This document shows positions 31,662 through 60,398 of a stretch of DNA of 64,000 nt, one piece after another. Position numbers and translations under genes: made by a program. Below the pieces are notes generated by a model. The model was not told where the DNA came from. It did no database searches and saw only the letters and a program-made list of their open reading frames with translations. Position 1 is the first letter of the stretch; every line of letters starts with the position of its first letter. Source of the stretch: a virus; IMG/VR virus record IMGVR_UViG_3300010399_000039, positions 1-64,000 of that record; one strand, written 5' to 3'.

Positions 31662-32407
31662 CCCTTCAAGACGCACTCGACAGAATAACCGAACGGCTCG
31701 ACGAAGAGACCACGCCGATCTACTGGACTTCGCAGGAATTTGTCGATGCCCTGAACTATGTTCTGCGACTCTTCGCCCTGCTCACGCTCTGGAAAGAAGT
31801 TACTGCGAACTTCACTCTCGTAGCATCGCAATGTTTTCACAATATTCTTTCGCACCCAAGCACGCCGCTCGCGGATTTCATCGTGCCCTTGCGGTTCACC
31901 GTTGGTGGGAAGAGGCTCAAGACCGCAAGCGTTCATCAACTGAATCTGCTGAATCCGTTCTGGACGGTGACGCCAGAAACGGCGGTCCTTGATCTCACCA
32001 ACACGCTTTCGATCGTGCCTGAATATTACGCGGTGCTCGGCTGTGATTTGTTGGCGGTCTATCCCCAAGATGACGCAGGAGTAACAGCGCGGCTTACCTA
32101 TGCGGCTTCCCCGACGCCGCTTTCACTCTCGAGCTTATCCGCGGTTCTGGACGCGCCACTGGCCTATCACGCTTGCTGTTTGGACTTTGCAATTTTGGTG
32201 CTGATGCAGAAGGTAGGCGGGCAGGAATTCGCCAACGAGATTCCGCGGCTGAAAGTATTTCTGGAAGAGGCGGGAAGACTGGCGGGTATCGTGAGAACGC
32301 GGATGATTGCTCAAGGATACGAACGCGTGCCGTTCGATCTGACCGCATACGATCAATCAGCGCTGTTCAAGATTCGATTGGCACAGCAGCCGAAGATGGC
32401 CGCTTGA
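31658..32407 (+). CDS. Adaptor-like phage protein, 249 aa
   Basis: N-terminal helical unit (DALDRITERLDEETTPIYW, TSQEFVDALNYVLRLFALLT), a beta domain (IVPLRFTVGGKRLK, LDLTNTLSIVPEYYAV) and C-terminal helices. This helix-beta-helix pattern is shared with the product at 35722 and with gp4/gp6-like adaptors. A second adaptor-like protein in one phage is not typical; one may be a paralogue with another use. Confidence 0.5.
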   Translation: MTLQDALDRITERLDEETTPIYWTSQEFVDALNYVLRLFALLTLWKEVTANFTLVASQCFHNILSHPSTPLADFIVPLRFTVGGKRLKTASVHQLNLLNPFWTVTPETAVLDLTNTLSIVPEYYAVLGCDLLAVYPQDDAGVTARLTYAASPTPLSLSSLSAVLDAPLAYHACCLDFAILVLMQKVGGQEFANEIPRLKVFLEEAGRLAGIVRTRMIAQGYERVPFDLTAYDQSALFKIRLAQQPKMAA

Positions 32408-32912: not shown

Positions 32913-32927
32913 CACGGAGGCGCTTTG

Positions 32928-35273
32928 ATGCGAAAACTCCTGTTGCTTCTCGCGGTCCTTGTGGTCGCCTCCGCTTCCTTGCTTACGGCGAGCCGCGCGC
33001 GCACGGCTACACCGACCCTTTCAACCTGCACTTGTTCGACGACAATTTTCGGCACTCAAGGCAACCCGCTTCCCGGCGTTAAGTTCTTCGTTAAGGTTCA
33101 TTCCTCGGTTGTCAGCGGCCAACTTGTCCAGCCAGCCAGCTTTAACGTCTCGACAGACGCCGCCGGTATTGCGCGAATCAAGATTGTGCAGGGTGCGAAA
33201 GTAACGATATCGAGCGAACACCCTGCGTTTGCGACGCCAGTCACTCGAACCTGGCCCGCCACTTCGACCTGTAGCTTAACGACTCTTTTTGATGTTCCTT
33301 TGCCTGCCGCGGTGTTTGGTCCAGGCACCGTCACGGACAACACGATTCCCAGATGGGACGGGACGACCGGCGCGCTACTTCAGAGCTCAACGGGCGTGAT
33401 CAGTGACGATGGCGCTTTAAGCGGAGTCACTATTGCAGGCTCGTTGATTACGTCGGGAACGGTCGCGGCAGCACGGCTTGGCCTGATGACGGGTGACACG
33501 GGCGCTGGCGGGGCAAGTGGCGCTGTACCAACGCCAGCCGCGGGTGACGCCGCGGCAAGCAAGTTCCTTAAAGCTGACGGCACCTGGCAAGTGGTCAGCA
33601 CGGGCTCTTTTGTAGACCTGACGACCAATCAAGCCGTTGCTGGCAACAAAACGTTGACCGGGATCACTACTCTCGGCACAGGCACGCACACTGGCGGCAG
33701 CATCTTCACTCCTGTCTCGACCCCGGAGTTCGTCAGTATCGCTTCTGGCACTTCCGCTACCCCGAGTACAAATGTCGCTCCCGCGATGACCGTGTCGAAG
33801 ATTTGGAACGGTGCTGCGGCTGGCGGGGTAGGACTCGTCGCCACGTTCTACGGGACACACGCGGGTGGCGCGGGCGCCGCGGAGATGGTGGACATCTGGG
33901 CGCGTCAGACAACAGCGGGTTCGATCTCGGGGATGTACGTCCGAGCGGTTGGCGCGATTGCCGGTGCGGGGCAGAGTCACTTCGCCGCAGCGTTCTCGAT
34001 GGAGCAAGACATCACGAACGTGGATCGCTCGGTCGCGGAATTCAATATCAACAATCAGACGGGATTCGACGCGGGCGGGGATTACGGCACCGCAGGGAAC
34101 CGGGCCAATGGGATTGGGATTGTCGCGGTTGGAGATAAGAAGAGCACCGTTGCCGTCTATATCGACACACACGGCGGAACGGTTGGAAATTTCTTCACTG
34201 GAATAGATTTCAGACCGGGTTCGGTTGACGCGACAACGCAGAGAGCTATTCGTATTCCCTCACAGACAAGTCTAGTGAGTTGGGCGGTCGGGAACAGCAA
34301 CGATATCCCTCTCATTCAGGGCAGCACCGATGGCGTGAATGATACAGTCCGGGTAAGCCCCGCCGGGCGATCAATCGTGCTCGGCAACGGATTTCTGGGA
34401 ACGACCGGCACGACCGGCTTTCTGTACATGATGGGCATGGCGGGAGCGCCGAGCGGAGTACCTGTCGCCATAACGGGCGAAGTGCCGATGGTGTACGACA
34501 CCGTTAATGACTCGTTGAAGGTCTACAACGGTGGCTCATGGAAAAACGTGGGTACTGGCGGAAGCGGGAACCTAACGGTAGGGACGACCAGTATTACGAG
34601 CGGCACGACAACTCGCGTGTTGTTCGATAACGCAGGAGCCCTTGGAGAATATTCGATTTCAGGAACCGGCAACGTCGCAATGACAGCAGCCCCGAGCTTC
34701 ACGTCTGGGATGACGCTTACACAAGCGCAGGATGGAATCACCAGCCTCACGATCAGCAACACTTCTACGGGCGTGACGGCGGTCGCGGCCATCCTGCTCA
34801 CCAACAACGCGGGGGCGAATGCTGGATTTTTCGGCCTCGCCGGAAGCAACTACACACCTGTTCCGATCTTGCTTGGGCGTCTGTTCTTCGACGCGAACCC
34901 GACAACGCAGGGCATCGCTATCAACACCGAGAGCGCGCAGCCGATCGTGTTTGGGGTGAGCAGCGCCGAGCGGGGCAGGTTCTCGATACTTGGAGTTTTC
35001 AACTCTTTCAAGGGCGGCAACGTGCTTTCTGCCGCCACGATCGCGATCACCGGGAATACTTTTCACGTCACCGGCACAACGAACATCACAAGCGTTTCAG
35101 GCACGAGCGTCGAAGCGGGAACGGTTATCACGATCATCTTTGACGATGCGCTGACCTTCACTGACGGATCAAACTTGAAGCTGGCGGGCAACTTCGTGAC
35201 GACCGCTGACGATACAATTACGCTGGTCTACGATGGCTCGAACTGGTATGAGAAGTCGAGGTCGGTGAACTAA
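32928..35273 (+). CDS. Fibre-like protein with signal peptide, 781 aa
   Basis: ATG 32928 follows GGAGG. Signal-like MRKLLLLLAVLVVASASLLT is followed by a short Ig-like/carboxypeptidase-regulatory-like domain (LPGVKFFVKVHSSVVSGQLV, ATPVTRTWPATSTC). Fibre repeats follow (FLKADGTWQVVSTG, LTTNQAVAGNKTLTG, NDSLKVYNGGSWKNVG) and a C-terminal region with FGVSSAERGRFSILG and GNTFHVTGTTN that resembles short-tail-fibre tips. Probable receptor-binding fibre, third with a Sec-type signal. Confidence 0.68.
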   Translation: MRKLLLLLAVLVVASASLLTASRARTATPTLSTCTCSTTIFGTQGNPLPGVKFFVKVHSSVVSGQLVQPASFNVSTDAAGIARIKIVQGAKVTISSEHPAFATPVTRTWPATSTCSLTTLFDVPLPAAVFGPGTVTDNTIPRWDGTTGALLQSSTGVISDDGALSGVTIAGSLITSGTVAAARLGLMTGDTGAGGASGAVPTPAAGDAAASKFLKADGTWQVVSTGSFVDLTTNQAVAGNKTLTGITTLGTGTHTGGSIFTPVSTPEFVSIASGTSATPSTNVAPAMTVSKIWNGAAAGGVGLVATFYGTHAGGAGAAEMVDIWARQTTAGSISGMYVRAVGAIAGAGQSHFAAAFSMEQDITNVDRSVAEFNINNQTGFDAGGDYGTAGNRANGIGIVAVGDKKSTVAVYIDTHGGTVGNFFTGIDFRPGSVDATTQRAIRIPSQTSLVSWAVGNSNDIPLIQGSTDGVNDTVRVSPAGRSIVLGNGFLGTTGTTGFLYMMGMAGAPSGVPVAITGEVPMVYDTVNDSLKVYNGGSWKNVGTGGSGNLTVGTTSITSGTTTRVLFDNAGALGEYSISGTGNVAMTAAPSFTSGMTLTQAQDGITSLTISNTSTGVTAVAAILLTNNAGANAGFFGLAGSNYTPVPILLGRLFFDANPTTQGIAINTESAQPIVFGVSSAERGRFSILGVFNSFKGGNVLSAATIAITGNTFHVTGTTNITSVSGTSVEAGTVITIIFDDALTFTDGSNLKLAGNFVTTADDTITLVYDGSNWYEKSRSVN

Positions 35274-35721: not shown

Positions 35722-36339
35722 ATGGATGTCACGACCATCACTACGCGCATCGTCCCTCAACTTCACTCCGACACGGTGAACAATCTTGCCTTCTGGACTG
35801 CCTGCGAAATTACAACCTGGCTCGATGAAGCCGCAAAACGTCTCGCCCGCACAACAGGCATCTTCACCGTTCGCGACATTTCAACGGTGCTCGTTGAAGG
35901 ACAGGCGCTTTACGCTCTTCCCGCTCGTCACATAAGAACGCTGTTCGTATTTCACGACAACCAGCCGCTTATTCCAACACCCATCGACAAGCTGGAACTG
36001 ATCGATCCGGGCTTCAAAGAGATCGCCAAGACGCCGCTGCGTTGGTGTGAGGACAAGGAAGGCATCGGAGACTTGAGGCTGTGGCCTGCGCCCGATGGTG
36101 ATGCGGCAATGAAGGAACTGGCGATCATCTTCGTTGAGTCACGCGAGACGCTAGACTGTCCGGGCGTTACGACAACAATGGTGATGCCCAAACCCGTCGA
36201 GGACTATCTTGAGACGTTTGCACTCGGCAAAGCGTGGAACAAAGAGAGTGATGCTCGCTTGCCGGAAGTGGGAAATCATCTTGCAGAGAGAGCGCGGCTG
36301 ATGGGGCAAGTCATCGCGCAATACTGGGGGATTGAATGA
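35722..36339 (+). CDS. Phage adaptor-like protein, 205 aa
   Basis: Starts immediately after the previous stop. Helical N-terminus (FWTACEITTWLDEAAKRLAR), beta middle (YALPARHIRTLFVFHDNQPL, LRWCEDKEGIGDLRLWPAPD) and C-terminal helices (KPVEDYLETFALGKAWNKES) correspond to phage adaptor proteins found before gp10/gp12-like tail genes. It probably bridges portal ring and tail tube. Confidence 0.65.
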   Translation: MDVTTITTRIVPQLHSDTVNNLAFWTACEITTWLDEAAKRLARTTGIFTVRDISTVLVEGQALYALPARHIRTLFVFHDNQPLIPTPIDKLELIDPGFKEIAKTPLRWCEDKEGIGDLRLWPAPDGDAAMKELAIIFVESRETLDCPGVTTTMVMPKPVEDYLETFALGKAWNKESDARLPEVGNHLAERARLMGQVIAQYWGIE

Positions 36340-44874: not shown

Positions 44875-47800
44875 ATGGCCGAAACCGACTTTCGTATTGA
44901 AGACTTCTTAGGCGACTCGCCTTCTCCCGCTGGCGGCTCATATCCCGCCGACCCCGAATACGATCCAATCCCAGGTGACGACAGATCACAGAACCGAGCA
45001 TACGCGCGCAAGGAAGCAGCCAAGCGCCGCCTCGATCCTGATTTCGTTGATCGGCTTTTCAAACAGGAATCCGGCTATAACCGAAAGGCCGTCAGCAACA
45101 ACGGTGCGCTGGGCATAGGCCAGTTGCTTCCAGAAACCGCCAAACGCTACGGAGTGACTGATCCTTTCGACGCAAAGCAGAACATCGATGCCAGCTTGAG
45201 CCACATCGAGGATCTTCATCGTCGCTTCAACGGCGACACCAGAAAGGTTGCAGCCGGATACTTCGCGGGTGAGGGTGCAGCAGAGAAGGCACTGGCGAAC
45301 CCAAGAGGCAATCCAAAGACGAAAGCCTATGCTGATCAGATAGCCGGACGAGCGCCGTCATTCCAGATTGAAGACTACTTCGGCGACGGCCCTCAGAGCC
45401 CCGTAGCCGCGCCGCAGGTTCAGGTGTCAGCTAAGCCCTTCCAGATCGAAGATTATTTCGGAGACACGCCCACGGCTTCACCGGGGCTACCAGAAACGAA
45501 CGTGGTCGCGGAGGCACCACCAGCGGTCATAGAGGCACCTGCGCAAGCTCCCAATCTTCGACCACCGACCACGCCGAAGATCGCCCCTCAAGGCCCAACT
45601 GGCGTTGAAATCAACCTGACCGAGCATCTTCGTTCTGGGCAGACCCCAACCCCGCAAGATATTGGCAAACTCAGCTATCAGGGACTCGGGTTCACCGACG
45701 AAGAAGCGGCAGACTTTGCCAAAGCGGTTCTTAGCAAGCCGCATGTGAGCCAACAGGACATCGCGAGCGTCTTCTATCAACCCGCCGATGAGGGTTCGAC
45801 AAAGGTGTTGCTCGCTCGCGCAGCGCAGGACGAAGGCGGGCGAGTCATTCTCCCTGACCTGGAGGCGCACAACTCGGATGCGAAGCGGTCGTGGCTCCAG
45901 CACTACCGGGCAGAGAAGGGCAAACAGGCCACGAGTGATAAACGCAGCGCTGAGATCGAACGGCTTGCTGCGCTTCCAGAATCCAAACGCGAAGATGCCG
46001 CAACGAAATTCGCACTGGCTCAGGAGAAAGCAGGCACGCCGCTGACGCCAGAAGAACGAAAGAGACTTGGCGGCGGGCCGCTTCCGATGGGCGGTGCGGT
46101 ACTGACCGATCTCGGCTCCATCATCAGAGGTGCAGGCGAAGGATTTGTTGCGCCTACAATCAAGGGAGTGGGTCGATTATTTGGAAGCGAGAAGACAAAA
46201 GAATTCGGCGCCTGGATTGAGCAGACCGCGAGAGAACGTGAGGCTCTTTATGGTCGACAGGGTTCGATAGGAGAGGCTGAAAGAACGGTCGGAGCGATCG
46301 CACCCGCGCTCGCAACCGGATCGGTCGGCGCAATGGCGTCACTTGGAGCGCTTGGCTCTTACGGACAAGGGAAATCCGCACCCGTCGCGGCGGCCGAAGG
46401 GGCGTTGACCTATCTCGGGCTCAAAGGTGTGGGTCAGATGATGAGATACATCAAAGCTCCGAATTTGTTCCGTGGGCTCCAGGCGTTGACCGATGACGAG
46501 ATCAAAGCCCTCGACGAAGCTGTGACGACCGGCAAGATGAAACCGGCGGATGCGGCAGCGGCAGCGGAAGCCGAAACCGCACGGCGCATCCTCGAAGCCT
46601 CGAAGTTCTTCTCGGCCGACAAAGCGCCAACCGGACTTAGCAGGGGCGATCTCGAATCCCTGCAAAGTTGGATAGCGTCTGGCCGCATCACCGAAACGCA
46701 AGCAGAACGACTCGCTCAGAAAGTCGTCAGCGAGCAAGTAAAAGCGGGTGCGGCTGTGCCGACGTTGACCGAGGGGCAGAGCATCAGCCCGACTCTCGAA
46801 AAAGTGCTTGGCGGTGCGTTTCTCGCGACGGTTCCAACGTTGGTCGAAACGGCGGCTGGCAATCCGCCTACCTCGGAATCAATGTTCCACAATCTTGTCT
46901 TGGCGGCGCTCGCAGAAGGAAGCGGAGCACTGAAAGGCAAAGCCGAAACAAAACCAGAACGCGGCAAGATCGAAGAAGTATCGAGAGAAGAAGTTGGAAC
47001 AAAGCAAGGCGAACCTCTCGTTGCGAACAAAACCGACGAGGTTCCCTTGGGAACGAAAGCCGTATGGCGATCAGCGGATGGTGACATCCCCGTAATTGTC
47101 ACAGGCGATCTCGGAGTGAAGAACGGACGGCGCTTTGTTCAGGTCGCGGAATCGAAAGCCGGTATTCCCGTCGACGAACTCGCAGGAGCGCCAAAGGAGA
47201 ATCTCAGTGATAGCGATAAGGGACCAGTTCCCACAACAGTACAAGGAAAGCCAACTGCCAGCGCTGAAGAAGCAGCCGGTGAAACAGCGCCCAGCCCCGA
47301 AGCCAAGCCCGAAGGGAAAGTAACGACCACAACGAAAGGAGAATCAGATGCCGAAGCAATACGAAGAGATCAAGAAAAGCTACGAGAAGCGCGGAGTGCC
47401 GGAACCGAAAGCAAAGGAACTAGCAGCGCGGACGTTCATCAAGAAGGGGTCGGGCGGCAACCCGTCGAGCCGAGCGAAGTCACTGCACGCGGACAAGCCG
47501 AAGAGCAAGTAACCGAGAAGGGTGCAGAAACTCCCACTGCGCCCGTCCGTAAACTCGCGCATGAACGATTCGGCGAGGTCACGGTTGCTGAGAATCAAGA
47601 CGGAGTGGAAGCCGGGCATCTTCGCGTGAAGGATAGCACGGGCGATGAGCATGTGATTCAGAATCCGAGATTGCACGGGAACCAGCTTGCGGCGTTTGTG
47701 AAACCGGAGCCTGTTCAGCCAGTAGCGGAGACACCGCCAGCCGCGCCGACGCCGCTACAACCTCCAAGTAAACCGGCCATACCTCTAAGTAAACAGCCCG

Positions 47801-50800
47801 CAGCTCCAAGTAAGCCCTCGGTCGCTGCGCCAAAGCCCCAAGTTCCAGCAGCCGATGCCTTCTCTCAAGCTCTCTCTGTCCGCCTCGAAGAGAAGCGCCA
47901 ATCAGCAGCCGAGCAGTTCAAGCAGCGGGTCCGCGAGTCTCGCGGGGCACCGAAGCTCTATCAGGAACCGGGAAGCCAGCGGATTGGGATTTTCAACAAG
48001 GACGGAAAGCTCGTAGGAACCGCTTCGCTCAGCGAGTCGAGCGATCCTCAGAAGTGGGTGAATCGGAACTATCCCAAAGATCATACCTGGGGACCACTCA
48101 CGATGGAGGGCGAGGGTAAGAAGCAGATTGCGAGCGGCAGAGAGAAACAGGCGAACATCTTGGCGCAGACGAAGACTCCCCAAGCCTACGAAGACATCGA
48201 GCTCCCCGACGAGGTAAAGCGCCCGCTGCTTGAAATCGCACAGTCCTTCATGGCCGAAGGCGAAGCGGATTACTCAAAACTCGTCGCGAACTTCGAAAAG
48301 CTGCTCGGTGGAGACTTCGAATACGTTGTCGATGTGCTCCCAACTGTAGTTGCTCACGCAGAGAAGCTTCAACGCCTCAGAAGCGCGCCTTCAGACAAGA
48401 TCGACCTCGCGCCCGGCGAAGCGAAAGAGAAGGCAGCAGTCATCGGCAAACCTTCTCGCGTTGTCACGCCTCGCGGCATCGAAGCGCAGACTCGTTTTGC
48501 GCTGTTTGAATCCGATCAGCCGATCACAAGCCATGATGTCGAGCTTCGCCCGAATCCTCACTTCCCTGAAGGCGTGCAGAATCGCGACCGCGCCAAGGTG
48601 TCGAGCGAAGACGATCTGCAGCAAAAGATAAAACGCTTCGAACCTGAATATCTGGGGAAGAGCATCGAGGCTGGACGCGGCGCTCCAATCGTCGGACCCG
48701 ACATGGCGGTTGAGTCGGGCAACGGGCGAGTGATTATGCTTCGCCGAATCTATCGCGATCACCCGGAACAAGCAGCGAAGTACAGAGCATGGCTGAAAGA
48801 GAACGCTGCGAAGTTCGGAATGACACCGGCCCAAGTCGAAGCGATGAAGCAACCGATCCTTGCTCAGATCAGAGCAACAGAATTCAGCCCCGCCGAAAGG
48901 ATTCAATTCGCGGAACAAGCCAACGAAGACACGCAGTTGAAGCTTTCGCCAGTCGAAGTAGCACGTGGCGATGCAAGAAAACTCAGCGCCGGATTGATTG
49001 CGCAATTCAAGCCAAGCGAAGACGGCGACATTCTTGCGGCCAGTAACCGAGAGTTCGTGAAAGGCTTTCTCGATCAAGTAGTCGGGCCATCCCGCGGCGA
49101 TCTTCTGACAAGCGATGGCTCGCTGAACCAGACCGGTGTCGATCGTGTTCGCAACGCGATATTCGCCAGAGCCTACGCTGACACCGATGCCGGGATCTCC
49201 GCGCTCGAGAAACTTGCTGAAGAGACCGACGTGAACACAAAGCGCGTGATCAACGCAATGGTTACGGTGGCGCCGCGCTTCGTTGAATTAAAGCAGATGA
49301 TTACCGGCGGCGGTCGCTACGCGCTGGATCTGTCGCCGGACCTTGCGGAAGCCGCGAAGCAACTTGCGCTGGTCAGAGAGTCGGGAATCACGGTTGATGA
49401 GTTTCTTCGACAGGGCCAGCTTTTCGGCGAGAATCTAAGTCGGGTTCAAAAGAAACTGCTCTGGACCTTGAATGAGAACGCGCGTTCGGCGACTAAGCTT
49501 TCCCAGGTGTTGACAAACTATCTGGATGCGGTTGATGCTATCGGTGATCCAAGGCAGCAATCGTTCTTCAGTCAGAACGTGCCGACGAAGGAAGAGATTC
49601 TGGAAGCGGCCGTAAGGCGAACCCAAGATGCTGACCAATCAAACATTGCAACGGCTGCGGAACAAGCTATCGGTGGCGCACGTGAGGGCTTATTTACCGA
49701 AAGGCAAAGCGCCGCGGCTGCCGGAACGCAAGCCGCGCCCGCCGGTAGTAGCAAGAGCGCTGATGTTGCTCCGAAGAAAACAGAAGTCAAACCTGCCGTC
49801 ACCGCCACCGACCGGCAATCCTTCCGACGAGCTCTAATCGAACAGTGGGGATACTCCGAAGAAGTCGCGCATAGAACCTCTGAGGTAATGGAGGCGCTGG
49901 CGCAGAGCTACGTTTACGATCTCAAGCAAAGCGATCCGAAGACTGACGCCGCGAAGGTGAAGCGCGCGTTCTACGAAACGGTGAGGATTGCGCCGGCGGT
50001 AAAGTCGGTCTTCAACCGAGGCACGTTCGACCCGAACGACCCGAATATCTTAAAGCAAGGGGAGCTTGCCTCAACCGAATTCACTCAAACAGGCGAAGCC
50101 ATCATCCGCGCCGGTCAGAACCCAAATGCTTCTTCCGCGATCCACGAAATCTTTCATGGCTCGCTTCCGATCCTTGCGCGGCTCGCCAATCAGCCAACAG
50201 CACCCGCTACCTTGAAATCGGCCATAGGAGCCATTCTTGAGCATTCCGGTTTTGAAGGCATTCCCGAATATCTACGTCAGCATCAAGGATGGGTAGATGG
50301 TTCCGCAACGCAGGCTGATCGAGACAGCTATCGCGCCGGGTCGGAGAAAGGTGCACGAGCCTGGGAGGGCTACTTCAGAGAAGGCAACGCGCCAACCTCC
50401 GCGCTCAAAGCCGCGTTCGACAAATTCAAGGAATGGCTCTCACGAATCTATCAACGCATTCGTCCCGACATGGAGATGTCGGACAGCGTTCGCCGTGCGT
50501 TTGATCGAATCCTCGGCGGCGAACGCGAACAGGCCGCGCTCAAGATCAAGGAAGCTGATCACTGGAACTTCCGCCGCTCATCGTTCGCATCGCCCGAAAC
50601 TGAAGCAAAGTTTCGCGACATCGTGCGACAAGCCGCCGTTGAAAGCGGCGGGGAACACAAAGCGCCGGTCTCTCGCGAGCAACACCTTGAGCGAGTCGCG
50701 GAACTCGAACCCGATCTTATCAAAGAGGTCAAAAGTCTCAGACAAATTCAAATCGCGTCTCGTGAAGTTTTCACGGCAGCGGCCCAATACGCCCAGACTC

Positions 50801-53800
50801 TCACGAATCAAGCGCAGCAACTCAGAGCGCAGATCACGCCAGCTACCTTGCCGCACGAGCAACTTGAACTCGAAGACAAGATCGCGGCGCTCGAACATGA
50901 CGCCACCGAGATCATGGCTCACACGATTGGCGTGCGTTCAGAATTTGGCCGTAATCTCGCGCTGCTTGCCGCTCAAAAGACCGATCAGCTCGCGCCCGAG
51001 AAGGTGTTGGCGTTTGGCAAGAAGCTCGCCGCGCAGAAAGGGCTCGATCAGAACTCGCGAACGTGGCGCACGGCGGCTCAGAAGCTCGTCGGGTTGAGCA
51101 ACGAGATTCAGGGCGCACAGACCGAGAAGAATCGGATTCAGAAAGAGCGCAAGGCCGTTCAGGACGGGACCGCGACGAAAGCAACAAAGCGTGCGCCGTG
51201 GCAAAGCGTGATGCTTGGAAACCTGAAAGCGCAGGCTAACGAAGCAAGCGCGAGACTTCAGGAACTCTACGGCAAAAAGCTCTATCAAGAAGGCTCACTG
51301 ACTGCCGATGAAATGGATCGCGTCAAGGCGAAGTTTGAATTCTTGAAAGCGGAAGCAAAGAAGACCAGCCAGCCTCTCAGGACCGCAGTGGACGATTACA
51401 TTCGGCAGGGCGGGCTATTCGGAGCCGAACTCTCGCCTGCGCAGCAAGGCGCGCTCATGGAGATGGCGAACCCAACCAGACGCGCCGCGCTGAAGACAGA
51501 ACAAGCTTCGCTGTTTGAAACCTCGCCCACTTTGGAATCTCGCCGGGAACAATCGCAGATCGACAAGGCGGGGCCGTCAAATCTTCTGTTCCAAGAAGAC
51601 GACATCCCATCAGTGGCGCACGACATCGCAACGATCCTTGCTGCTCGTGTAGCCGAAGAGTCGCAAACCAAGAAAGGGCTCCCGCTTGATCGAATCCTCG
51701 AAGAGATGCGGGCCAGCTTCCCCGACATAATCGGCGAGTATGAAGAGCAGATCAAAGCGACCGCTGACAGCTTGCTCAAGGATGCCCGGCGCCAAGCGCT
51801 TGTCTCCGCTGCGCGCAATCCCGAACAGGCGATGAGCGCACGGGCGGAACTTGCTCGGGACATCGCCGATGCGCGGCGCGCCGTGAAGGAAGCGGAGAAA
51901 GCCGCAGCCAAGAAGAAAGCCCAGATGGATGCTGCCTGGGAAGCCGACAATGTGAAAGCTCAGAAGGAAGCGGCGCGGCTTTGGGATAAATCGAACGCGG
52001 AATGGCGCAAGGCATCGGAAGAAGCAGAGACCCAACTGCCCAAGGCTGAGATTCAAGCGCAACGAGTGTTTGAGCGCCAACAGCGTGCGGCGGTGATCGA
52101 AGAGGCGAAGCGCGAAACCGAGGCCGCGAAGATTCAGGAACAGGCTCGTCTCGAAGAGGTCGCTGATGCTGCGCGGGAAGAACTGAAGCGAGCGCGAGAA
52201 GCCGCGATGGAGTCGATCAAGAGCAACGTGGCTGCTCCGGCGAGAGAGCGAAAAGCAGCGGAACGTAAAGCGGCGGCAGCTTCCCGAAAGTGGAACGCGC
52301 CGATTATCCAAGCGGCATCAGAAGCGCGCGCCAGAATCACTCAACCCGATTACGTACCGACCATCGATGATCTCGCAGCGATCGCGGCCGACAAGACTTT
52401 CGAGCCGGGCATGACCGGCGCACAGCTTCACGCCGAGATGCAGCAATACGGGAAGCCGTACACGAAGAACATTCCGCAGATTCGTCACGCAGCCGCAGAA
52501 CTGAAATCCAATGCGAGCAAGGCGGCGATTCAACGTAGGCTTGAAGCAAAGGCGGCGGGCCGGGCGGAAGGGTTAACGAAACCCGCAGAGCAACAGCAGG
52601 CGCGCGAGGATTACGCAAAGTGGCAACAGGAAGAACTCGCGAGACTGGCCGCCGAGGAGGCATGGCAGACCAAGCGCGTGCAAACCGCGAAGCGGGATCT
52701 TGCGAAAGAATTTGCAAAGCTACAGAAGCCGTCGAAGCTGGACGTTACGCTTGATTTGTTGGGCCTGCCGATCTCGTTGGCTTCATCAGTTGACTTACCG
52801 CATCTTCGCCAGGGCATCCCCACGCTGATGAATCACCCGCGGGCTTGGTTCGAGTCTCTGATGAAAAGCTTTAGCACTTGGACCGAAGGGCAGATGGAAA
52901 CCCGGCTAAACGAATTGGAGCGATCGCCACTCGCGGAGCTGGCGCACCTTTCGGGGCTGAAACAATCGGGTCTCGAAGCCCGTCGTAATCCACTCTCGAG
53001 ACTTGCTCGCGAAGAACAGTTTCAAAACCGCATCGCTCAGATGGTGCCCCACGTCAGAGTTAGCGAACGCCAATACACGACCGGAATGGACGTGATGCGC
53101 TACAAAGTCTTCGAACTGCATGCCGAGAAGATGCTGAACAAATTCCCGCCGGCGCTTCATCCTGAAATGTATTCGGAGATTGCGCGGATCGTGAACATAA
53201 TGACCGGCGTCGGCGATCTCGGTTCTTTCACGCATTACGCGCCGTTCCTGAATCGCTTCGTGCTGTATGCGACGCGCTATCTCGTCTCTCGATTCCAACT
53301 GCTCGGGATGCTTCGCTCGCCCGCGTTCTATAGAGGCCAGCCGTGGGAAGTCAGAAAGATTGCCGCGAAGGAAGCTTATGGCTACGTCGGCAAGATGGCG
53401 CTCTTGTTCGGCGCACTGGCGGCGGTCGGGCTGACGAGTCTCGATGTCGACGATGACGATTTTCTAAAACTGCGCGTCCCGAAGACAAATCAGAAGTGGG
53501 ATTTGACCGGCGGCATGGGCGGGTATGTAAAGACGCTATTCAAGCTGGCACGTTCTGCTTACCGCAAGAGCACCGGCCAGCGAGAATTCGCGGGCGATTC
53601 TGCCGGAGACACCATACAGCAATTCGTCAGATCGAAGCTCGCACCGGCACCCGCGACGTTGTGGGATTGGAAAACCGGAAAGACCTATACGGGCGAACCT
53701 TTCACTTGGGGCGGCAAGGTCGGCGAACTCGTGACGCCAATGGTGGCGCGGGATATCTTCGACGCGATCAAAACGGATGGCGCACGAGGCGCGGTTATGA

Positions 53801-54363
53801 TTCCGTTTGGACTGCTCGGTGGGAATGTCTCCACTTACCGATCGCGCAAAATGCCAGATCGAACACAATCGGAAGCCGAGCGCTACGCTACGGGATTCTT
53901 ACGTGAGAACATGGGCCAGACCTCAGAGAACCCAGCCGACTACAAACGCCGCACGCTGATTACCGAACTCGCCGCAGCGAAGAAAGCCGGAAAGCCAACG
54001 GATCGCATTGAGCGCGATCTTGCGGCGGCGGGCGGGCCTTTGAGTCCGAAGGAACAAGAGCGTGTCACCGAGCGCGTCGCCCAGACCCCACTTGAACATG
54101 CATATCCGCATCTGCACGAAGATCAAAAGGCGGAAGTGCTTAAGGTCGCAACCGATGCCGAAAAGCAAATGATCGAACCTCACTATCGAAAGATTGAAGA
54201 ATTGCAGGACAGATTTGTGAACGCACTGAAAGCGCAGCCGGGCTTCGCGGACAAGTCACCCCAGGAACAGAAAGAGGCCATCAAGAAGGCGCTTTCTTAC
54301 GCAAGAACACTCGTCCATAAAGCGGCGAAGCGAAGCCGCGCCAGCATTCCCGCTCCACAATAG
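44875..54363 (+). CDS. Giant polyvalent ejection protein with lytic transglycosylase, ParB-like and metallopeptidase modules, 3162 aa
   Basis: One uninterrupted frame of 9.5 kb ending in TAG. Modules seen: residues 40-155, an SLT lytic transglycosylase (KQESGYNRKAV with catalytic E65, GALGIGQLLPETAKRYG, AAGYFAGEGA); three FxIEDYFGD motifs at about 6, 163 and 189; residues about 1215-1330, a DdrB/ParB-like polyvalent domain (SHDVELRPNPHFPEG, VESGNGRVIMLRRIY); about residue 1757, an HEIFH zinc metallopeptidase motif in a context typical of phage polyvalent proteins (GARAWEGYFREG as possible third ligand region); long coiled-coil segments at about 1900-2600; a C-terminal segment with one hydrophobic helix near 2841-2858 (MALLFGALAAVGLTSL). 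Such proteins are ejected ahead of DNA to cut peptidoglycan and protect the genome. No RNA polymerase motif is visible. No good ribosome site precedes ATG 44875, so translation may be coupled to upstream genes. Confidence 0.85.
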   Translation: MAETDFRIEDFLGDSPSPAGGSYPADPEYDPIPGDDRSQNRAYARKEAAKRRLDPDFVDRLFKQESGYNRKAVSNNGALGIGQLLPETAKRYGVTDPFDAKQNIDASLSHIEDLHRRFNGDTRKVAAGYFAGEGAAEKALANPRGNPKTKAYADQIAGRAPSFQIEDYFGDGPQSPVAAPQVQVSAKPFQIEDYFGDTPTASPGLPETNVVAEAPPAVIEAPAQAPNLRPPTTPKIAPQGPTGVEINLTEHLRSGQTPTPQDIGKLSYQGLGFTDEEAADFAKAVLSKPHVSQQDIASVFYQPADEGSTKVLLARAAQDEGGRVILPDLEAHNSDAKRSWLQHYRAEKGKQATSDKRSAEIERLAALPESKREDAATKFALAQEKAGTPLTPEERKRLGGGPLPMGGAVLTDLGSIIRGAGEGFVAPTIKGVGRLFGSEKTKEFGAWIEQTAREREALYGRQGSIGEAERTVGAIAPALATGSVGAMASLGALGSYGQGKSAPVAAAEGALTYLGLKGVGQMMRYIKAPNLFRGLQALTDDEIKALDEAVTTGKMKPADAAAAAEAETARRILEASKFFSADKAPTGLSRGDLESLQSWIASGRITETQAERLAQKVVSEQVKAGAAVPTLTEGQSISPTLEKVLGGAFLATVPTLVETAAGNPPTSESMFHNLVLAALAEGSGALKGKAETKPERGKIEEVSREEVGTKQGEPLVANKTDEVPLGTKAVWRSADGDIPVIVTGDLGVKNGRRFVQVAESKAGIPVDELAGAPKENLSDSDKGPVPTTVQGKPTASAEEAAGETAPSPEAKPEGKVTTTTKGESDAEAIRRDQEKLREARSAGTESKGTSSADVHQEGVGRQPVEPSEVTARGQAEEQVTEKGAETPTAPVRKLAHERFGEVTVAENQDGVEAGHLRVKDSTGDEHVIQNPRLHGNQLAAFVKPEPVQPVAETPPAAPTPLQPPSKPAIPLSKQPAAPSKPSVAAPKPQVPAADAFSQALSVRLEEKRQSAAEQFKQRVRESRGAPKLYQEPGSQRIGIFNKDGKLVGTASLSESSDPQKWVNRNYPKDHTWGPLTMEGEGKKQIASGREKQANILAQTKTPQAYEDIELPDEVKRPLLEIAQSFMAEGEADYSKLVANFEKLLGGDFEYVVDVLPTVVAHAEKLQRLRSAPSDKIDLAPGEAKEKAAVIGKPSRVVTPRGIEAQTRFALFESDQPITSHDVELRPNPHFPEGVQNRDRAKVSSEDDLQQKIKRFEPEYLGKSIEAGRGAPIVGPDMAVESGNGRVIMLRRIYRDHPEQAAKYRAWLKENAAKFGMTPAQVEAMKQPILAQIRATEFSPAERIQFAEQANEDTQLKLSPVEVARGDARKLSAGLIAQFKPSEDGDILAASNREFVKGFLDQVVGPSRGDLLTSDGSLNQTGVDRVRNAIFARAYADTDAGISALEKLAEETDVNTKRVINAMVTVAPRFVELKQMITGGGRYALDLSPDLAEAAKQLALVRESGITVDEFLRQGQLFGENLSRVQKKLLWTLNENARSATKLSQVLTNYLDAVDAIGDPRQQSFFSQNVPTKEEILEAAVRRTQDADQSNIATAAEQAIGGAREGLFTERQSAAAAGTQAAPAGSSKSADVAPKKTEVKPAVTATDRQSFRRALIEQWGYSEEVAHRTSEVMEALAQSYVYDLKQSDPKTDAAKVKRAFYETVRIAPAVKSVFNRGTFDPNDPNILKQGELASTEFTQTGEAIIRAGQNPNASSAIHEIFHGSLPILARLANQPTAPATLKSAIGAILEHSGFEGIPEYLRQHQGWVDGSATQADRDSYRAGSEKGARAWEGYFREGNAPTSALKAAFDKFKEWLSRIYQRIRPDMEMSDSVRRAFDRILGGEREQAALKIKEADHWNFRRSSFASPETEAKFRDIVRQAAVESGGEHKAPVSREQHLERVAELEPDLIKEVKSLRQIQIASREVFTAAAQYAQTLTNQAQQLRAQITPATLPHEQLELEDKIAALEHDATEIMAHTIGVRSEFGRNLALLAAQKTDQLAPEKVLAFGKKLAAQKGLDQNSRTWRTAAQKLVGLSNEIQGAQTEKNRIQKERKAVQDGTATKATKRAPWQSVMLGNLKAQANEASARLQELYGKKLYQEGSLTADEMDRVKAKFEFLKAEAKKTSQPLRTAVDDYIRQGGLFGAELSPAQQGALMEMANPTRRAALKTEQASLFETSPTLESRREQSQIDKAGPSNLLFQEDDIPSVAHDIATILAARVAEESQTKKGLPLDRILEEMRASFPDIIGEYEEQIKATADSLLKDARRQALVSAARNPEQAMSARAELARDIADARRAVKEAEKAAAKKKAQMDAAWEADNVKAQKEAARLWDKSNAEWRKASEEAETQLPKAEIQAQRVFERQQRAAVIEEAKRETEAAKIQEQARLEEVADAAREELKRAREAAMESIKSNVAAPARERKAAERKAAAASRKWNAPIIQAASEARARITQPDYVPTIDDLAAIAADKTFEPGMTGAQLHAEMQQYGKPYTKNIPQIRHAAAELKSNASKAAIQRRLEAKAAGRAEGLTKPAEQQQAREDYAKWQQEELARLAAEEAWQTKRVQTAKRDLAKEFAKLQKPSKLDVTLDLLGLPISLASSVDLPHLRQGIPTLMNHPRAWFESLMKSFSTWTEGQMETRLNELERSPLAELAHLSGLKQSGLEARRNPLSRLAREEQFQNRIAQMVPHVRVSERQYTTGMDVMRYKVFELHAEKMLNKFPPALHPEMYSEIARIVNIMTGVGDLGSFTHYAPFLNRFVLYATRYLVSRFQLLGMLRSPAFYRGQPWEVRKIAAKEAYGYVGKMALLFGALAAVGLTSLDVDDDDFLKLRVPKTNQKWDLTGGMGGYVKTLFKLARSAYRKSTGQREFAGDSAGDTIQQFVRSKLAPAPATLWDWKTGKTYTGEPFTWGGKVGELVTPMVARDIFDAIKTDGARGAVMIPFGLLGGNVSTYRSRKMPDRTQSEAERYATGFLRENMGQTSENPADYKRRTLITELAAAKKAGKPTDRIERDLAAAGGPLSPKEQERVTERVAQTPLEHAYPHLHEDQKAEVLKVATDAEKQMIEPHYRKIEELQDRFVNALKAQPGFADKSPQEQKEAIKKALSYARTLVHKAAKRSRASIPAPQ

Positions 54364-54413: not shown

Positions 54414-55223
54414 ATGACACTCGACAAGATTAAGACTATCGCCATCGTCCTCGTCTGCGTCCTTGCGATCCTCGTGCTCGGCGAGAGCGCCTACACGATT
54501 CACGTCCTTCGCCCGAAGGCCATCGAAACCGTTTCCAATCTGAACGACACAACCGGCGACGTGAAGGAATACGTTCACGAACAACTCGCGATTGTCAGAA
54601 GCCCCGCTTTTCAGAAGAACATCGAACATTCATCAGAGGTCGGGGACATCACCGCCAAAACAATCGCGCAGATCGCGCGGCGCACGCTTCCACGGGTTGA
54701 TAGGGCAATCGACGAACTGACGGCGAGGCTTGTGACTCTGGATACGGTGCTGGTCAGCGTGAGAGGCGTAAGCGACGAAGCTCGCGTCCAGGTCAAACAC
54801 AACGGTGACGAAGCTACAAAGACTCTCGCATCACTCAACCGAACGATCTCGGACGTCGACACCCGATTCAGCAAGATACTCGATGACGGCGCATTGATGC
54901 TTGAGACCGCGAACCCAAAGCTGCAGGAACTTCTCGATCACACAAGCGCCGTGATGATCGACGCGGACGGCACGATAAAATCCTTCCAGCCGGTAGGCGT
55001 CAATCTGGCGGGTATCACGGCAGACTTCAACGCAATGACGACGGATTCAAGGAACAAATTGCATGAGATTCTGTTTCCGGCGCCGAAGCACGGATGGGCG
55101 CGCGTAGGTCAGGTTGCCACGTACCTGCTACGGCCCGTCTTTGAAGGAGCGCGGCTTTATTTCCAACTAACCGCTTTGCCGGTGCGGATCACTCAGCCAG
55201 TGCCATTACCGAAGGCACCATAA
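54414..55223 (+). CDS. Membrane-anchored coiled-coil protein, 269 aa
   Basis: N-terminal transmembrane helix (IKTIAIVLVCVLAILVLGES, about 6-25), then a long helical region of methyl-accepting-receptor/DUF948-like character (ETVSNLNDTTGDVKEYVHEQ, ARVQVKHNGDEATKTLASLN). Periplasmic coiled coil is predicted. Could be an inner-membrane spanin-like part of the cassette that ends with the lipoprotein at 56604, but this is inference. Confidence 0.58.
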   Translation: MTLDKIKTIAIVLVCVLAILVLGESAYTIHVLRPKAIETVSNLNDTTGDVKEYVHEQLAIVRSPAFQKNIEHSSEVGDITAKTIAQIARRTLPRVDRAIDELTARLVTLDTVLVSVRGVSDEARVQVKHNGDEATKTLASLNRTISDVDTRFSKILDDGALMLETANPKLQELLDHTSAVMIDADGTIKSFQPVGVNLAGITADFNAMTTDSRNKLHEILFPAPKHGWARVGQVATYLLRPVFEGARLYFQLTALPVRITQPVPLPKAP

Positions 55224-55233
55224 GGAGCGGCTA

Positions 55234-55554
55234 ATGGACGATCTGCTAACGGAACAACTCACGCTGAAACTCGAAGCCGTCCTGACCGACCTTAGAGCGG
55301 GCAAGCCGTTTTCGGTTGGCACCCATCCCGAATTGCTCGTCTTGATGCTCGGGATGTCGAGTGCGGACGCGGTGGACGTACCGGACAACAATTCGTGGCG
55401 CGAACTCGGGCAAGGATTAGCTGCGACTCTGGCGGAACTGTTTGCGAGCGTCGAACAAAGCCACTTGAAAGCTTTGGCTGTTCGGTACGTGAAGGAATAT
55501 CGAGAATTTCTCGCGCGGCGTGAAAGCATGATCGCGCAGGCAGGAACATCATAG
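55234..55554 (+). CDS. Small helical protein, 106 aa
   Basis: GGAG site (AAGGAG) upstream. Helical, mostly hydrophobic-acidic with ELFASVEQSHLKALAVRYV and a basic C-terminus. Not recognised; in the 54.4-57.3 kb unit. Confidence 0.55.
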   Translation: MDDLLTEQLTLKLEAVLTDLRAGKPFSVGTHPELLVLMLGMSSADAVDVPDNNSWRELGQGLAATLAELFASVEQSHLKALAVRYVKEYREFLARRESMIAQAGTS

Positions 55555-55562
55555 GAGGCTCG

Positions 55563-56129
55563 ATGAAAACAAAACTTGGATTGTCGTTACTGGTCATTCT
55601 CGCATGCTTAGTCGCCGCGCCCGCGCAGCGCCATCATCTCGCGAAGACCGGCAATTCAACGGAGATGCAGAACCGAATCGCGAAAGCAGCCAAGGGGCTG
55701 AGTTGGGAAAGCGAGGGTTCTGACAACCTGCGCATTTTCTTCTTACAGGCTGCTCCGATACATCCTGCTCATCCTGACGGAACATTCGACGCTGAACTCG
55801 TTCGAGACATCGAGGATCAGCTAAGAGACTGGGCAAAGAAGCTGCCCGGAACCTATAAGCCGGTTGGTTACAAAACCATCGAGACTGAGACGATAGAAGA
55901 CCTGCTTGATAATTTGTTGAACCCGGAACCCGGATCGAACGGTGAAGTGGATAAAGACGAAGCCTTCGCGTCAGCAAAGTGGGCAGTGCTGAAAGACGTT
56001 GTGAATGAGTTGGTGGACACGCAGGTCTACTGGCTCGGGAGCGAAGAAAATTATCAGCTTATCGTGGTCTGTGGAGTGGATAAGCAAGGAAGCCTCGTTG
56101 GGTTCTGGATGAGACATTGGAGTTCATAA
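55563..56129 (+). CDS. Exported NuiA-like putative nuclease inhibitor, 188 aa
   Basis: AGGAGG site. Signal peptide MKTKLGLSLLVILACLVAAP with likely cleavage before QRHH. The mature part has the pattern of the nuclease A inhibitor (NuiA)-like family: AAKGLSWESEGSDNLRIFFL (family: GL-x-SE-x-D with hydrophobic strand), a TIEDLLDNLLNPEP loop, ELVDTQVYWLGSEENYQLIV (family: VKVYRVG then hydrophobic strand) and GVDKQGSLVGFWM at the end (family: G-x-DG-x-x-G). NuiA binds and blocks the secreted nuclease NucA. A phage version with a Sec signal would act outside the cytoplasm. Assignment is by pattern only. Confidence 0.6.
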   Translation: MKTKLGLSLLVILACLVAAPAQRHHLAKTGNSTEMQNRIAKAAKGLSWESEGSDNLRIFFLQAAPIHPAHPDGTFDAELVRDIEDQLRDWAKKLPGTYKPVGYKTIETETIEDLLDNLLNPEPGSNGEVDKDEAFASAKWAVLKDVVNELVDTQVYWLGSEENYQLIVVCGVDKQGSLVGFWMRHWSS

Positions 56130-56130
56130 A

Positions 56131-56400
56131 ATGAAGCCAGAAATCTCTAGCGGTGTCGGTGCTGTCCTCTCAAACGATGACCCGAGGATGATCGAGTGGG
56201 AACAATTCAAAGCGCGCGGCGAATACGCGAACGCTGTGAACTGGGCCACCTACCCTTCTGTGAGCGTAGAGATGTCAGAGGATGGTAAGGGCGAAGTCGG
56301 AATCACGCTGCACTACGATCATATCGAGGGCTCGATGTGGGCTGCGTTCTGTGCTGGATTCAATGCCGCAATAGCACAAGAAAACCGAAAGGCGGAATAG
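56131..56400 (+). CDS. Hypothetical protein, 89 aa
   Basis: Starts just after the previous stop. Contains GMVEWEQF-like strand pattern (MIEWEQFKARGEYANAVNW), a VSVEMSEDGKGEVGITLHY beta hairpin and a helical end (MWAAFCAGFNAAIAQ). No family recognised. Confidence 0.55.
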   Translation: MKPEISSGVGAVLSNDDPRMIEWEQFKARGEYANAVNWATYPSVSVEMSEDGKGEVGITLHYDHIEGSMWAAFCAGFNAAIAQENRKAE

Positions 56401-56403
56401 TTC

Positions 56404-56607
56404 ATGCGCGCCAGCGACGCTCAATCGCCAAACTCCACGTTAATCCTTCGCGCCTACAACGGTCGTATTACCGGCGCTGCTCCCGGCGAGCCCGAGCGTG
56501 ATCTCGTAGACGGTGAGGTTGAACCTGCACAGCAGCTTTTGTCTGTCTTTGCGGGTGAACAGACAATGAGACAAAACCGGACAGAATCAAAAAAGGAGAC
56601 TCAATGA
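56404..56607 (+). CDS. Hypothetical protein, 67 aa
   Basis: Short, Pro/Glu-rich (GAAPGEPERDLVDGEVEPAQ) with a basic C-terminus; overlaps the lipoprotein gene by 4 bases. Unknown. Confidence 0.45.
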   Translation: MRASDAQSPNSTLILRAYNGRITGAAPGEPERDLVDGEVEPAQQLLSVFAGEQTMRQNRTESKKETQ

Positions 56608-57062
56608 GAATCAGACCACTAATCTTAACCATCCTTGCTTTCTCGCTGACAGCCTGCGTGAAGCAGACCGCCGATCAGCCACCGGGAACGGCGATCATCA
56701 CCAACTTGAAGTCAGCGCTTCACGTCGCGCAGGTAGCAACTGCCAGCGCCAAGGATGCGCTACCGGCGTTGATGCCGAATGCGGACGCGGAAGACATCGC
56801 CACAGCAAACGCGATTCTTAAAGACGTAGATACCGCGCTTGGCGTGCTGAATACGAAGATCGCGCCCTACTCATCCTTTGACACCAGCAATCAGGCGCAA
56901 ATCAAGCAGGCCGTCGTGGACACGCTGGATACGCTCAAGGCTTTGCAGTCCGCGCAGGTGACGCATATCAAGAACGCGAAGTTGCGGGATCGGGTGAATC
57001 TTGGGTTGAATCTGGCGAGCGGGGCACTGTCGCTGTGGAACCCGCCAGCTCCGAGTGCGTGA
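56604..57062 (+). CDS. Lipoprotein, 152 aa
   Basis: Signal MRIRPLILTILAFSLTAC with a lipobox (LTAC) and Cys at residue 18. Mature part helical (LKSALHVAQVATASAKDALP, DVDTALGVLNTKIAPYSSFD). It would be lipid-anchored in the periplasm, possibly the outer-membrane partner of the protein at 54414 or a superinfection-exclusion lipoprotein. Confidence 0.68.
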   Translation: MRIRPLILTILAFSLTACVKQTADQPPGTAIITNLKSALHVAQVATASAKDALPALMPNADAEDIATANAILKDVDTALGVLNTKIAPYSSFDTSNQAQIKQAVVDTLDTLKALQSAQVTHIKNAKLRDRVNLGLNLASGALSLWNPPAPSA

Positions 57063-57385: not shown

Positions 57386-57865
57386 CTACGACGAACCAAT
57401 CAGCGCGAGGCGCAATCGTTCCTCAATTTCAATCGGCAACGCCCATAATCCGAATCCATTAGGACCGTCAGCGCCCAGCAGTGCTGCTTGTACGTCTTTC
57501 ATTAGCCCGACCAACACCGCCCGCTCCCTGCTCTGTGATTCGAGGGCGGCGAGCAGCTTACGATACTCTGCCTCCATTTCAGCATGGGTATCATGCGACG
57601 GATAGCCACGATAGAAGTGGTCCAGTGCCCACCATATCCTCTCAACTGCGCGCTTTGCATCAATCAACCCCGCTACGTCATCGGGCAGAGGCGGGGTAGC
57701 TCGGCGGTTCCAAGATGCCAGCGCTACGTGATAATAGCTGGACGGACAACCCGACGTTAGACACATCACCGCTGTATACGGTTCCGATTCCACACGGCCA
57801 ACGTACTTTGTATCTACGTCCGGTTTGCTGCCACAGAACGGACAGTTCAATACTTGCTCGCTCAT
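57386..57865 (-). CDS. Lar-family restriction-alleviation-like protein, 159 aa
   Basis: ATG 57865 follows GGAGG 7 bases upstream; an upstream TTG is rejected. LNCPFCGSKPDVD with SGCPSSYYHVALASWNRR is the Lar/Ral-type zinc-ribbon signature (CPFCG, C, and terminal WNRR). Lar proteins relieve type I restriction. Residues 60-159 are helical and not usual for the family. Last gene of the leftward operon. Confidence 0.78.
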   Translation of the reverse strand: MSEQVLNCPFCGSKPDVDTKYVGRVESEPYTAVMCLTSGCPSSYYHVALASWNRRATPPLPDDVAGLIDAKRAVERIWWALDHFYRGYPSHDTHAEMEAEYRKLLAALESQSRERAVLVGLMKDVQAALLGADGPNGFGLWALPIEIEERLRLALIGSS

Positions 57866-57866
57866 T

Positions 57867-58080
57867 TCATCCTCCAAACCAGTCTCGCGACATCAGTAGT
57901 CCCATAATGACCCCCATGACTAGGCTCGCGATGCACGCAATCAAAATCACCATAACGACCACCTGATCTGGCGTCATTGTTGGGATGTTCTTTTCGTGAA
58001 TTATCGCACGCAAGATGAAGCCGACAAGCAAGGCCGACCAAAATGAATAGAACCGGAAGCCCAGGTAATAGCTTGCTCAT
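57867..58080 (-). pseudogene. Small membrane protein, apparently frameshifted
   Basis: ATG 58080 has a perfect GGAGG ribosome site. The first 20 residues (MSKLLPGLPVLFILVG) are hydrophobic; the same frame then turns into a His/Asn/Gly-rich unlikely sequence. The next frame reads LLVGFILRAII then TPDQVVVMVILIACIASLVM and ends MSRDWFGG* at 57867, a clean second transmembrane helix. A one-base slip at about 58022-58035 would join them. Either a mutation or a sequence error. Confidence 0.5.
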
Positions 58081-59247: not shown

Positions 59248-59388
59248 TTAGCGCTTCGCCTTCCGTGTCTTCTTTTTCGGCCTGGCGCGTGACTTCCGCT
59301 TGCGCGGTTCTTTCTCTTTCTCGACCGGGCGATAGGCCAGAACCACGTCAACAACCCGGTCTAGAATCTCAGGAGTCTGGCCGCTCAT
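59248..59388 (-). CDS. Small basic IS-encoded protein, 46 aa
   Basis: ATGA overlap with the transposase stop (ATG 59388-59386). N-terminal helix (SGQTPEILDRVVDVVLAYRP) and a Lys/Arg-rich tail (RKRKSRARPKKKTRKAKR). Translational coupling and position inside the IS suggest an accessory of transposition, but no function is known to me. Confidence 0.5.
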   Translation of the reverse strand: MSGQTPEILDRVVDVVLAYRPVEKEKEPRKRKSRARPKKKTRKAKR

Positions 59389-60314
59389 TTGGTCAGCTCC
59401 TTGAACGTCAGGCGCTTGCCCGCCGTGCCAGCGATAAAGCTATCGAGCCGCTTCAAGCTGTGAATCTTCACGTTCCCTTCGTTCAGGCGAAACGTGAACT
59501 CATCGACGTAGCGGTGCAGGTGCTTTTTGCTTGTCGAGTGATAGACACCGTGTATGCCGCGCTTCATCACAGCCCACACGCTCTCTATGCTGTTCGTGTT
59601 GACCGGGCCGCGCCCGAAGACACCCGCGCTATGGTTGACGGTGCGATGCTTGAACAGGAGCCCGTCAAGGCCGCTATAGCTTCCGTGCTCATCGGTGTAG
59701 ATCGTGGAGCCAACTTCGATGTTATCGAAGATCGCTTGTTGAACGGTGCCAAGATCGTTGCCCTCAATCGTGAACGCTTTTGTGTTGCCGCCCCGCTCGC
59801 GCATCCCAAGAACGGAGATTTTCCCAACGGAGCCCCGGCCTTGTTTCAGCTTCTTATTGTCGTGCTTGTTGATTTCCTTTCCGCCTACGAAAGTTTCGTC
59901 TATCTCAACCGTGCCGCGAAGCATTTCAAGATTGCCGCCACACGCCTCGCGCAATCTGTGCAGGAGAAACCACGCCGTCTTTTGTGTGACTCCGATTTCT
60001 TTTGCAAGCTGCATCGACGCAAACCCCTTGCGAGCGGTCACAAGCAAATACATTGCATAGAGCCATTTGTGGAGTGGGATTTTCGAGCGCTCCATAACGG
60101 TGCCAGTGCGGACGGTGAAATCAAGCTGACAGGGATAACAGCGGTAGAAACCGGTCTTGCCCTTGCCCTTGAGCGCTGCGATGTTCTCCCGGCTCTTGCA
60201 CGTCGGACACGTCACGCCGTTAGGCCAGAGCCGCGACTCAAGATAGATTCGAGCGGCTTCCTGATTCGGAAACATCTCGAAGAGTTGAAAGGTGCTGATA
60301 GTCGATCTACTCAT
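59385..60314 (-). CDS. IS1595-family transposase, 309 aa
   Basis: ATG 60314 follows GAGAGGATT; an upstream frame to 60371 is not needed. N-terminal zinc ribbon CPTC (36-39) and CYPC (59-62) with FTVRTGTVMERSKIPLHKW, then a DDE-type nuclease core with EIDETFVGG (D139), YTDEHGSY (D208) and NSIESVWAVMKRG (E244 or N241). Length and motifs are normal for the family. Inserts the element with 8-bp duplication. All motifs are intact, so it may be active. Confidence 0.92.
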   Translation of the reverse strand: MSRSTISTFQLFEMFPNQEAARIYLESRLWPNGVTCPTCKSRENIAALKGKGKTGFYRCYPCQLDFTVRTGTVMERSKIPLHKWLYAMYLLVTARKGFASMQLAKEIGVTQKTAWFLLHRLREACGGNLEMLRGTVEIDETFVGGKEINKHDNKKLKQGRGSVGKISVLGMRERGGNTKAFTIEGNDLGTVQQAIFDNIEVGSTIYTDEHGSYSGLDGLLFKHRTVNHSAGVFGRGPVNTNSIESVWAVMKRGIHGVYHSTSKKHLHRYVDEFTFRLNEGNVKIHSLKRLDSFIAGTAGKRLTFKELTK

Positions 60315-60398
60315 AAATCCTCTCGAAGCGGGCGGCCCGCCACGATTGCCCCTTGCGGAGATACGAATCACCGCGAGGAACCGCAGCGGGCCATAATC

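Follow-up and report, generated by a model that had tools for sequence, protein, structure and literature searches.

Does a phage gene encode an exported, NuiA-like inhibitor of nucleases? A sequence-only reading of this locus had proposed that it does, quoting three protein motifs. The stretch analysed here (the window) comprises 64,000 nucleotides, positions 1 to 64,000, of IMG/VR virus record IMGVR_UViG_3300010399_000039, which has 71,219 bases. The phage setting is right, since the record encodes a terminase large subunit, a major head protein and tail proteins. The ORF at 55563-56129 on the plus strand runs from an ATG start codon to a TAA stop codon, specifies 188 amino acids plus the stop and was confirmed as real. 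All three quoted motifs were found in its translation: GLSWESEGSDNLRIFFL at residues 45 to 61, TQVYWLGSEENYQLIV at residues 153 to 168 and GVDKQGSLVG at residues 171 to 180. The gene has the following parts.

55553..55558, plus strand: Shine-Dalgarno sequence AGGAGG, 4 bases ahead of the start codon, read directly.
55563..55625, plus strand: putative Sec signal peptide, residues 1 to 21, with an APA|Q cleavage site placed by eye; based on hydropathy and on a homologue of the same design.
55626..56126, plus strand: mature NuiA-like domain, residues 22 to 188; based on profile comparison, shuffles, HMM, predicted structure and fold match.

A search of 2.9 million viral contigs revealed one homologue of the window protein, in IMGVR_UViG_3300005549_000012, and several query sets returned no relatives in viral contigs beyond this second phage. 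Close relatives were not found in bacterial genomes, nor was the protein found in annotated phages and plasmids. The mature parts of the two phage proteins share 149 of 158 residues, the other 9 being changed. The two genes differ at 58 of 474 bases, with 44 of the 58 differences at third codon positions, and because the homologue differs mainly at such positions 55563-56129 is truly coding. The mature NuiA-like domain is under strong purifying selection, with dN/dS values of 0.03/0.70 (NG86) and 0.034/0.44 (YN00), i.e. approximately 0.04 to 0.08.

Likeness to NuiA was assessed by several sequence comparisons. The curated cut-off of the Pfam NuiA family (PF07924) is 22.1 bits; the window protein was not listed for this family, while its homologue scored 14.1 bits (E 0.058), under the cut-off. 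At genome level PF07924 gave no match, and none was obtained in control genomes either. The only Pfam family listed for the window protein, GATase_5 (E 0.046), was rejected as a candidate: the match is below cut-off and partial, and none of the listed fold matches is to this family. When the two phage sequences were aligned with six NuiA proteins by hhalign, the probability was 91% and the E-value about 1e-6, colinear over residues 33 to 181. In a column-shuffle control of this profile-profile comparison (n=300), the maximum score was 24.7 against 44.3 observed. An HMM built from NuiA proteins only listed just the window ORF (E 0.0014) and its homologue (E 0.0036) among 1129 stop-to-stop ORFs, taken from the window and from the retrieved portion of the second phage's contig. 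With the window protein as query against 177,635 distinct PDB sequences, NuiA was the sole match at E<=10 (E 0.82, in two colinear pieces), and hmmsearch of the PDB with the two-sequence phage profile returned nothing. Identity between the phage protein and NuiA is 17 to 25%.

The likeness to NuiA claimed from the sequence stood up to profile-profile comparison, the NuiA-only HMM and the predicted fold, and fell short at the curated cut-off, for which reason the phage protein is not filed as a member of PF07924. Profile-profile comparison, the NuiA-only HMM, the PDB sequence match and the predicted fold support the window protein as a homologue of NuiA, the homology being a remote one. We are highly confident that the phage protein has the NuiA family and fold.

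The fold was predicted with AlphaFold2 from an alignment of the two phage proteins and 24 cyanobacterial NuiA proteins, giving a model with a pLDDT of 73.9 and a pTM of 0.70. In a Foldseek search this model had a sole match under 0.001, to 2o3b_B (NuiA complexed with NucA; E 2.5e-6). Superposition on NuiA, suggested as a check by the sequence-only reading, bore out the resemblance: VIA-align overlaid the model on 2o3b_B with a Z of 14.1 and an rmsd of 2.9 Å over 132 of 135 residues, a match that is partly circular and not independent because NuiA sequences sat in the model's alignment. The best unrelated entry for the same model was Maf1 (Z 6.2). When only the two phage sequences were used as input, the resulting model was of poor quality (pLDDT 43). 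Its top structural match was also 2o3b_B, with a Z of 6.5 over 114 residues; this modelled match is independent of NuiA input and too low alone to prove the fold. A fold search of BFVD gave nothing under E 0.08.

Three codons of the phage gene correspond to key positions in NuiA.

55713..55715, plus strand: Glu51 codon, aligned with NuiA Glu24, which is invariant in 24 of 24 NuiA sequences.
55932..55934, plus strand: Gly124 codon, at the position of the invariant NuiA Trp76.
56124..56126, plus strand: codon of the C-terminal Ser188, aligned with the C-terminal Thr135 of NuiA (T or S in 24 of 24).

The invariant Ser23-Glu24 of NuiA corresponds to Ser50-Glu51 in the phage protein; past this Ser-Glu, the conserved NuiA motif SES-[ED]YP is mostly lost. 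At the other end the register is exact, Gly176-Ser188 of the phage protein equalling Gly123-Thr135 of NuiA after G-x-L-x-G, and a Ser at position 135 occurs in 2 of the 24 NuiA proteins. The invariant NuiA Glu134 is replaced by Ser187. A NuiA protein from Deinococcus is likewise without Trp76. The phage protein also has two insertions, of about 7 and 14 residues, which lie after the first strand and ahead of the middle helix. Apart from residue 24, the NuiA contact residues are assigned from conservation. Residues 24 and 121 of 2O3B are in contact (PMC5374557). Our own reading of this contact is NuiA Glu24 with NucA Asp121, since position 121 of NuiA is a Pro (confirmed in its sequence), and it would put Glu24 in the active site of the nuclease. 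According to PMC5758888, NuiA inhibits competitively, its binding site overlapping with the DNA site.

The proposed Sec signal gained support from hydropathy and from an N-terminus of the same design in the homologue. The N-terminus of the window protein reads MKTKLGLSLLVILACLVAAPA|QRHH and that of the second phage MRKLLLVTLLLILPVSVLA|QRKK; each begins with basic residues, continues into a hydrophobic core and reaches an AxA-type site just ahead of Gln-Arg, and in both the best 12-residue mean hydropathy is 3.1. The NuiA-like ORF ranks 8th in N-terminal hydropathy among the 309 window ORFs of at least 60 amino acids. DNA similarity to the second phage starts at 55648 (residue 29), and the signal peptides have diverged far more than the mature domain. 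As the comparison of the two phages brings out, selection for export would leave a near-invariant domain behind a signal whose letters drift while its character stays constant. Judged from these sequences, the phage NuiA-like protein is very probably exported. A soluble exported protein is likelier than a lipoprotein, because ILAC in the window protein is far from a good lipobox and Cys is missing at that place in the homologue.

The genes around the NuiA-like ORF are as follows.

54414..55223, plus strand: neighbouring gene for a 269-aa protein with an N-terminal membrane segment.
55234..55554, plus strand: neighbouring 106-aa ORF, function unassigned.
56131..56400, plus strand: 89-aa ORF separating the NuiA-like gene from the 67-aa ORF; the second phage has no counterpart there.
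56404..56607, plus strand: 67-aa companion ORF, common to both phages with the NuiA-like gene, 89% identity.
56604..57062, plus strand: neighbouring gene for a 152-aa lipoprotein with an LTAC lipobox, predicted from sequence; no Pfam family.

An envelope setting had been read from this neighbourhood, and the membrane-anchored product of 54414-55223 and the predicted lipoprotein of 56604-57062 sustain it. The two phages carrying the NuiA-like gene are otherwise unrelated. When the window was compared with 15.4 kb of the second phage's contig, the only strong DNA matches were the NuiA-like gene and the 67-aa ORF; at protein level there were two more, weak matches, one of 24% over 205 aa with the window terminase and one of a 53-residue stretch. 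In the second phage the gene pair lies directly before a 737-aa ORF at 7070 (the ORF with the weak terminase match); in the window the pair is positioned downstream of structural genes. Because the pair alone matches strongly between the phages, at different positions and without the 89-aa ORF in the second, it has the appearance of a small cassette that has moved from one phage to another, unrelated one, as we infer from the sequences. No close phage relatives were found via the terminase.

Further genes of the window may be recorded here. Upstream, the gene at 44875-54363 specifies 3162 amino acids, with an SLT transglycosylase domain close to the N-terminus and, in addition, a ddrB-like ParB domain; the product is likely to be a polyvalent protein that is ejected. 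The 1031-aa product of 21141-24236, in the structural region, starts with a hydrophobic stretch that resembles a signal and ends in AQ; it contains a glycosyl hydrolase family 43 domain (PF04616, E 1.3e-11) and is assigned by PHROGs as a tail protein. More signal-type N-termini (SASAQ, TTGAQ and similar) occur at 24748-26184, 27065-27448 and 32925-35273, one of these proteins being weakly tail-fibre-like; several exported proteins within one phage is unusual. A GIY-YIG homing-type endonuclease with a NUMOD3 motif is encoded at 29188-29829, and two ORFs, 31658-32407 and 35722-36339, have matches to one family, the SU10 adaptor protein (PF24175). On the minus strand, the 163-aa ORF at 57386-57877 shows weak, sub-threshold similarity to Lar, a restriction alleviation protein (PF14354, E 4.4e-4), and a transposase gene of the IS1595 family, with zinc ribbon and DDE domains, lies within the phage genome at 59385-60371.

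What, then, might the protein act upon? Cyanobacterial NuiA genes, including those on plasmids, commonly adjoin a gene for a DNA/RNA non-specific endonuclease, which ties the NuiA fold to nuclease inhibition. No nuclease of the phage's own was found as a cognate partner, neither phage record having a match to PF01223 or PF04231, the two families searched. The target, if any, therefore probably belongs to the host. The same fold as NuiA does not show the same function, and we put the chance that the phage protein inhibits a nuclease at about even. Our preferred reading, to which we give a probability of about 0.5, is an exported and highly diverged inhibitor of the NuiA type, directed against a beta-beta-alpha-metal nuclease that the host exports.

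Computation supplied the gene, its conservation, remote homology and fold, the kept Glu and C-terminal register, the export-type N-terminus and the sharing by two phages; nuclease binding, the type of target, timing and benefit are what we infer beyond these. Cleavage of the signal near residue 21 would yield a soluble NuiA-fold domain of ~167 residues in the host periplasm or the medium. The Glu51 face and the free C-terminus (Ser188) would then block the catalytic site of a non-specific nuclease of the NucA/Serratia type that the host exports, by analogy with NuiA, Glu51 being equated to Glu24 and Ser188 to Thr135. Phage DNA would thereby probably be protected from a nuclease that the host secretes or keeps in its envelope, at the late stage of infection at which the inner membrane gives way and DNA not yet packaged lies open to attack. 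Alternatively, the inhibitor may enable sister phages to infect the same cell, or may be packaged in the virion. The sequence-only reading had proposed that phage DNA would be protected during entry or after lysis. Protection of the phage's own incoming DNA is doubtful and was the weakest part of that proposal: the protein is made after the genome has arrived, and could act at entry only if carried in the virion. According to a review (PMC10975011), the DNA of tailed phages probably passes into the cell through a conduit in which it is shielded already. Late DNA protection, co-infecting sister phages or virion packaging would fit better than protection at entry.

The main rival to a nuclease inhibitor keeps the exported NuiA fold and gives it another envelope target, nuclease inhibition having gone; such a repurposed protein might be a superinfection-exclusion, lysis-timing or virion factor. 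Loss of Trp76 and Glu134 despite strong purifying selection points this way, as do the position of the gene among membrane and lipoprotein genes and the small conserved ORF that accompanies it. However, the counterpart of Glu24 and the exact C-terminal register with its terminal Thr/Ser have been retained, and we entertain a repurposed fold as a possibility to be held tentatively.

Two further explanations dispense with export or with NuiA altogether. The protein might be a cytoplasmic NuiA-like inhibitor of an intracellular nuclease (of host defence or phage-induced), its N-terminus serving as an anchor or going unused; known cyanobacterial NuiA proteins have no signal peptide, and the title of 2o3b calls NuiA an intracellular inhibitor. 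Against this, the two phages retain signal-type N-termini with little common sequence and an AxA-type site at the same place before Gln-Arg, and similar N-termini are found on other window proteins, making a cytoplasmic role very unlikely. It is likewise highly improbable that this is an unrelated exported phage protein whose resemblance to NuiA is coincidental. No curated family cut-off was reached, that of GATase_5 included, and the model without NuiA sequences is of low pLDDT, both of which speak for a coincidence; yet NuiA is indicated by the shuffles, the HMM ranking, the sole PDB match and the first fold rank of either model.

The statement that no phage protein of this kind had been described is consistent with searches of phage records, BFVD, viral contigs and the literature. 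Phage records held no match to NuiA and none to the Deinococcus NuiA member, no canonical NuiA was found in viral contigs by the patterns used, and the phrase nuclease A inhibitor was not found together with phage in the papers searched. To our knowledge, all known phage anti-nuclease proteins act intracellularly. Periplasmic and secreted nucleases are usually seen as nutritional or biofilm enzymes; an exported anti-nuclease would suggest that they cost phages, and would offer a simple handle for testing this. More broadly, and with less assurance, we suggest an extracytoplasmic phage counter-defence in which a Sec-exported inhibitor of the NuiA type, travelling between unrelated phages together with a small partner gene, would disarm non-specific nucleases that the host secretes or holds in its envelope. 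If true, such nucleases would hinder phages enough for their inhibition to pay. Cleavage of phage DNA during injection by a nuclease bound to the membrane was recently shown (PMC13190303), making inhibitors that act in the envelope a timely question.

Among known systems, NuiA itself (Anabaena, inhibitor of NucA; PF07924; PDB 2o3b, 1j57, 1ktu) has the same fold and the same order of secondary structure as the phage protein. Common to both are the G-L-x-x-x-S-E motif with Glu24, the [QK]-V-Y-x-[LV]-G strand and the C-terminal register ending in Thr/Ser; unlike NuiA, the phage protein is phage-borne, has a signal peptide and extra loops of ~7 and ~14 residues, and has no adjacent nuclease gene. 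Exported NuiA proteins are not unique to phages: a plasmid lipoprotein of Deinococcus sp. QL22 (WP_249396815.1, nuclease A inhibitor family) likewise carries its NuiA domain after an export signal and is encoded on a mobile element. It differs from the phage protein in its lipobox (SAC), its canonical C-terminal VET and its non-phage origin, and pairwise BLAST of the two revealed no similarity. Its gene (2854-3387 of the plasmid stretch compared) lies near an integrase. Lambda Gam resembles the proposed role in being a phage protein that disarms a host nuclease, whereas it is intracellular (cytoplasmic), targets RecBCD and has a different fold from the phage NuiA-like protein. Gam is a named host-nuclease inhibitor (PMC10695390). 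Nin (PDB 4MQD), the inhibitor of Bacillus NucA/NucB, has no meaningful sequence homology and little structural homology with NuiA (PMC5758888). Its target is nonetheless an exported beta-beta-alpha-metal nuclease, as is proposed here for the phage protein.
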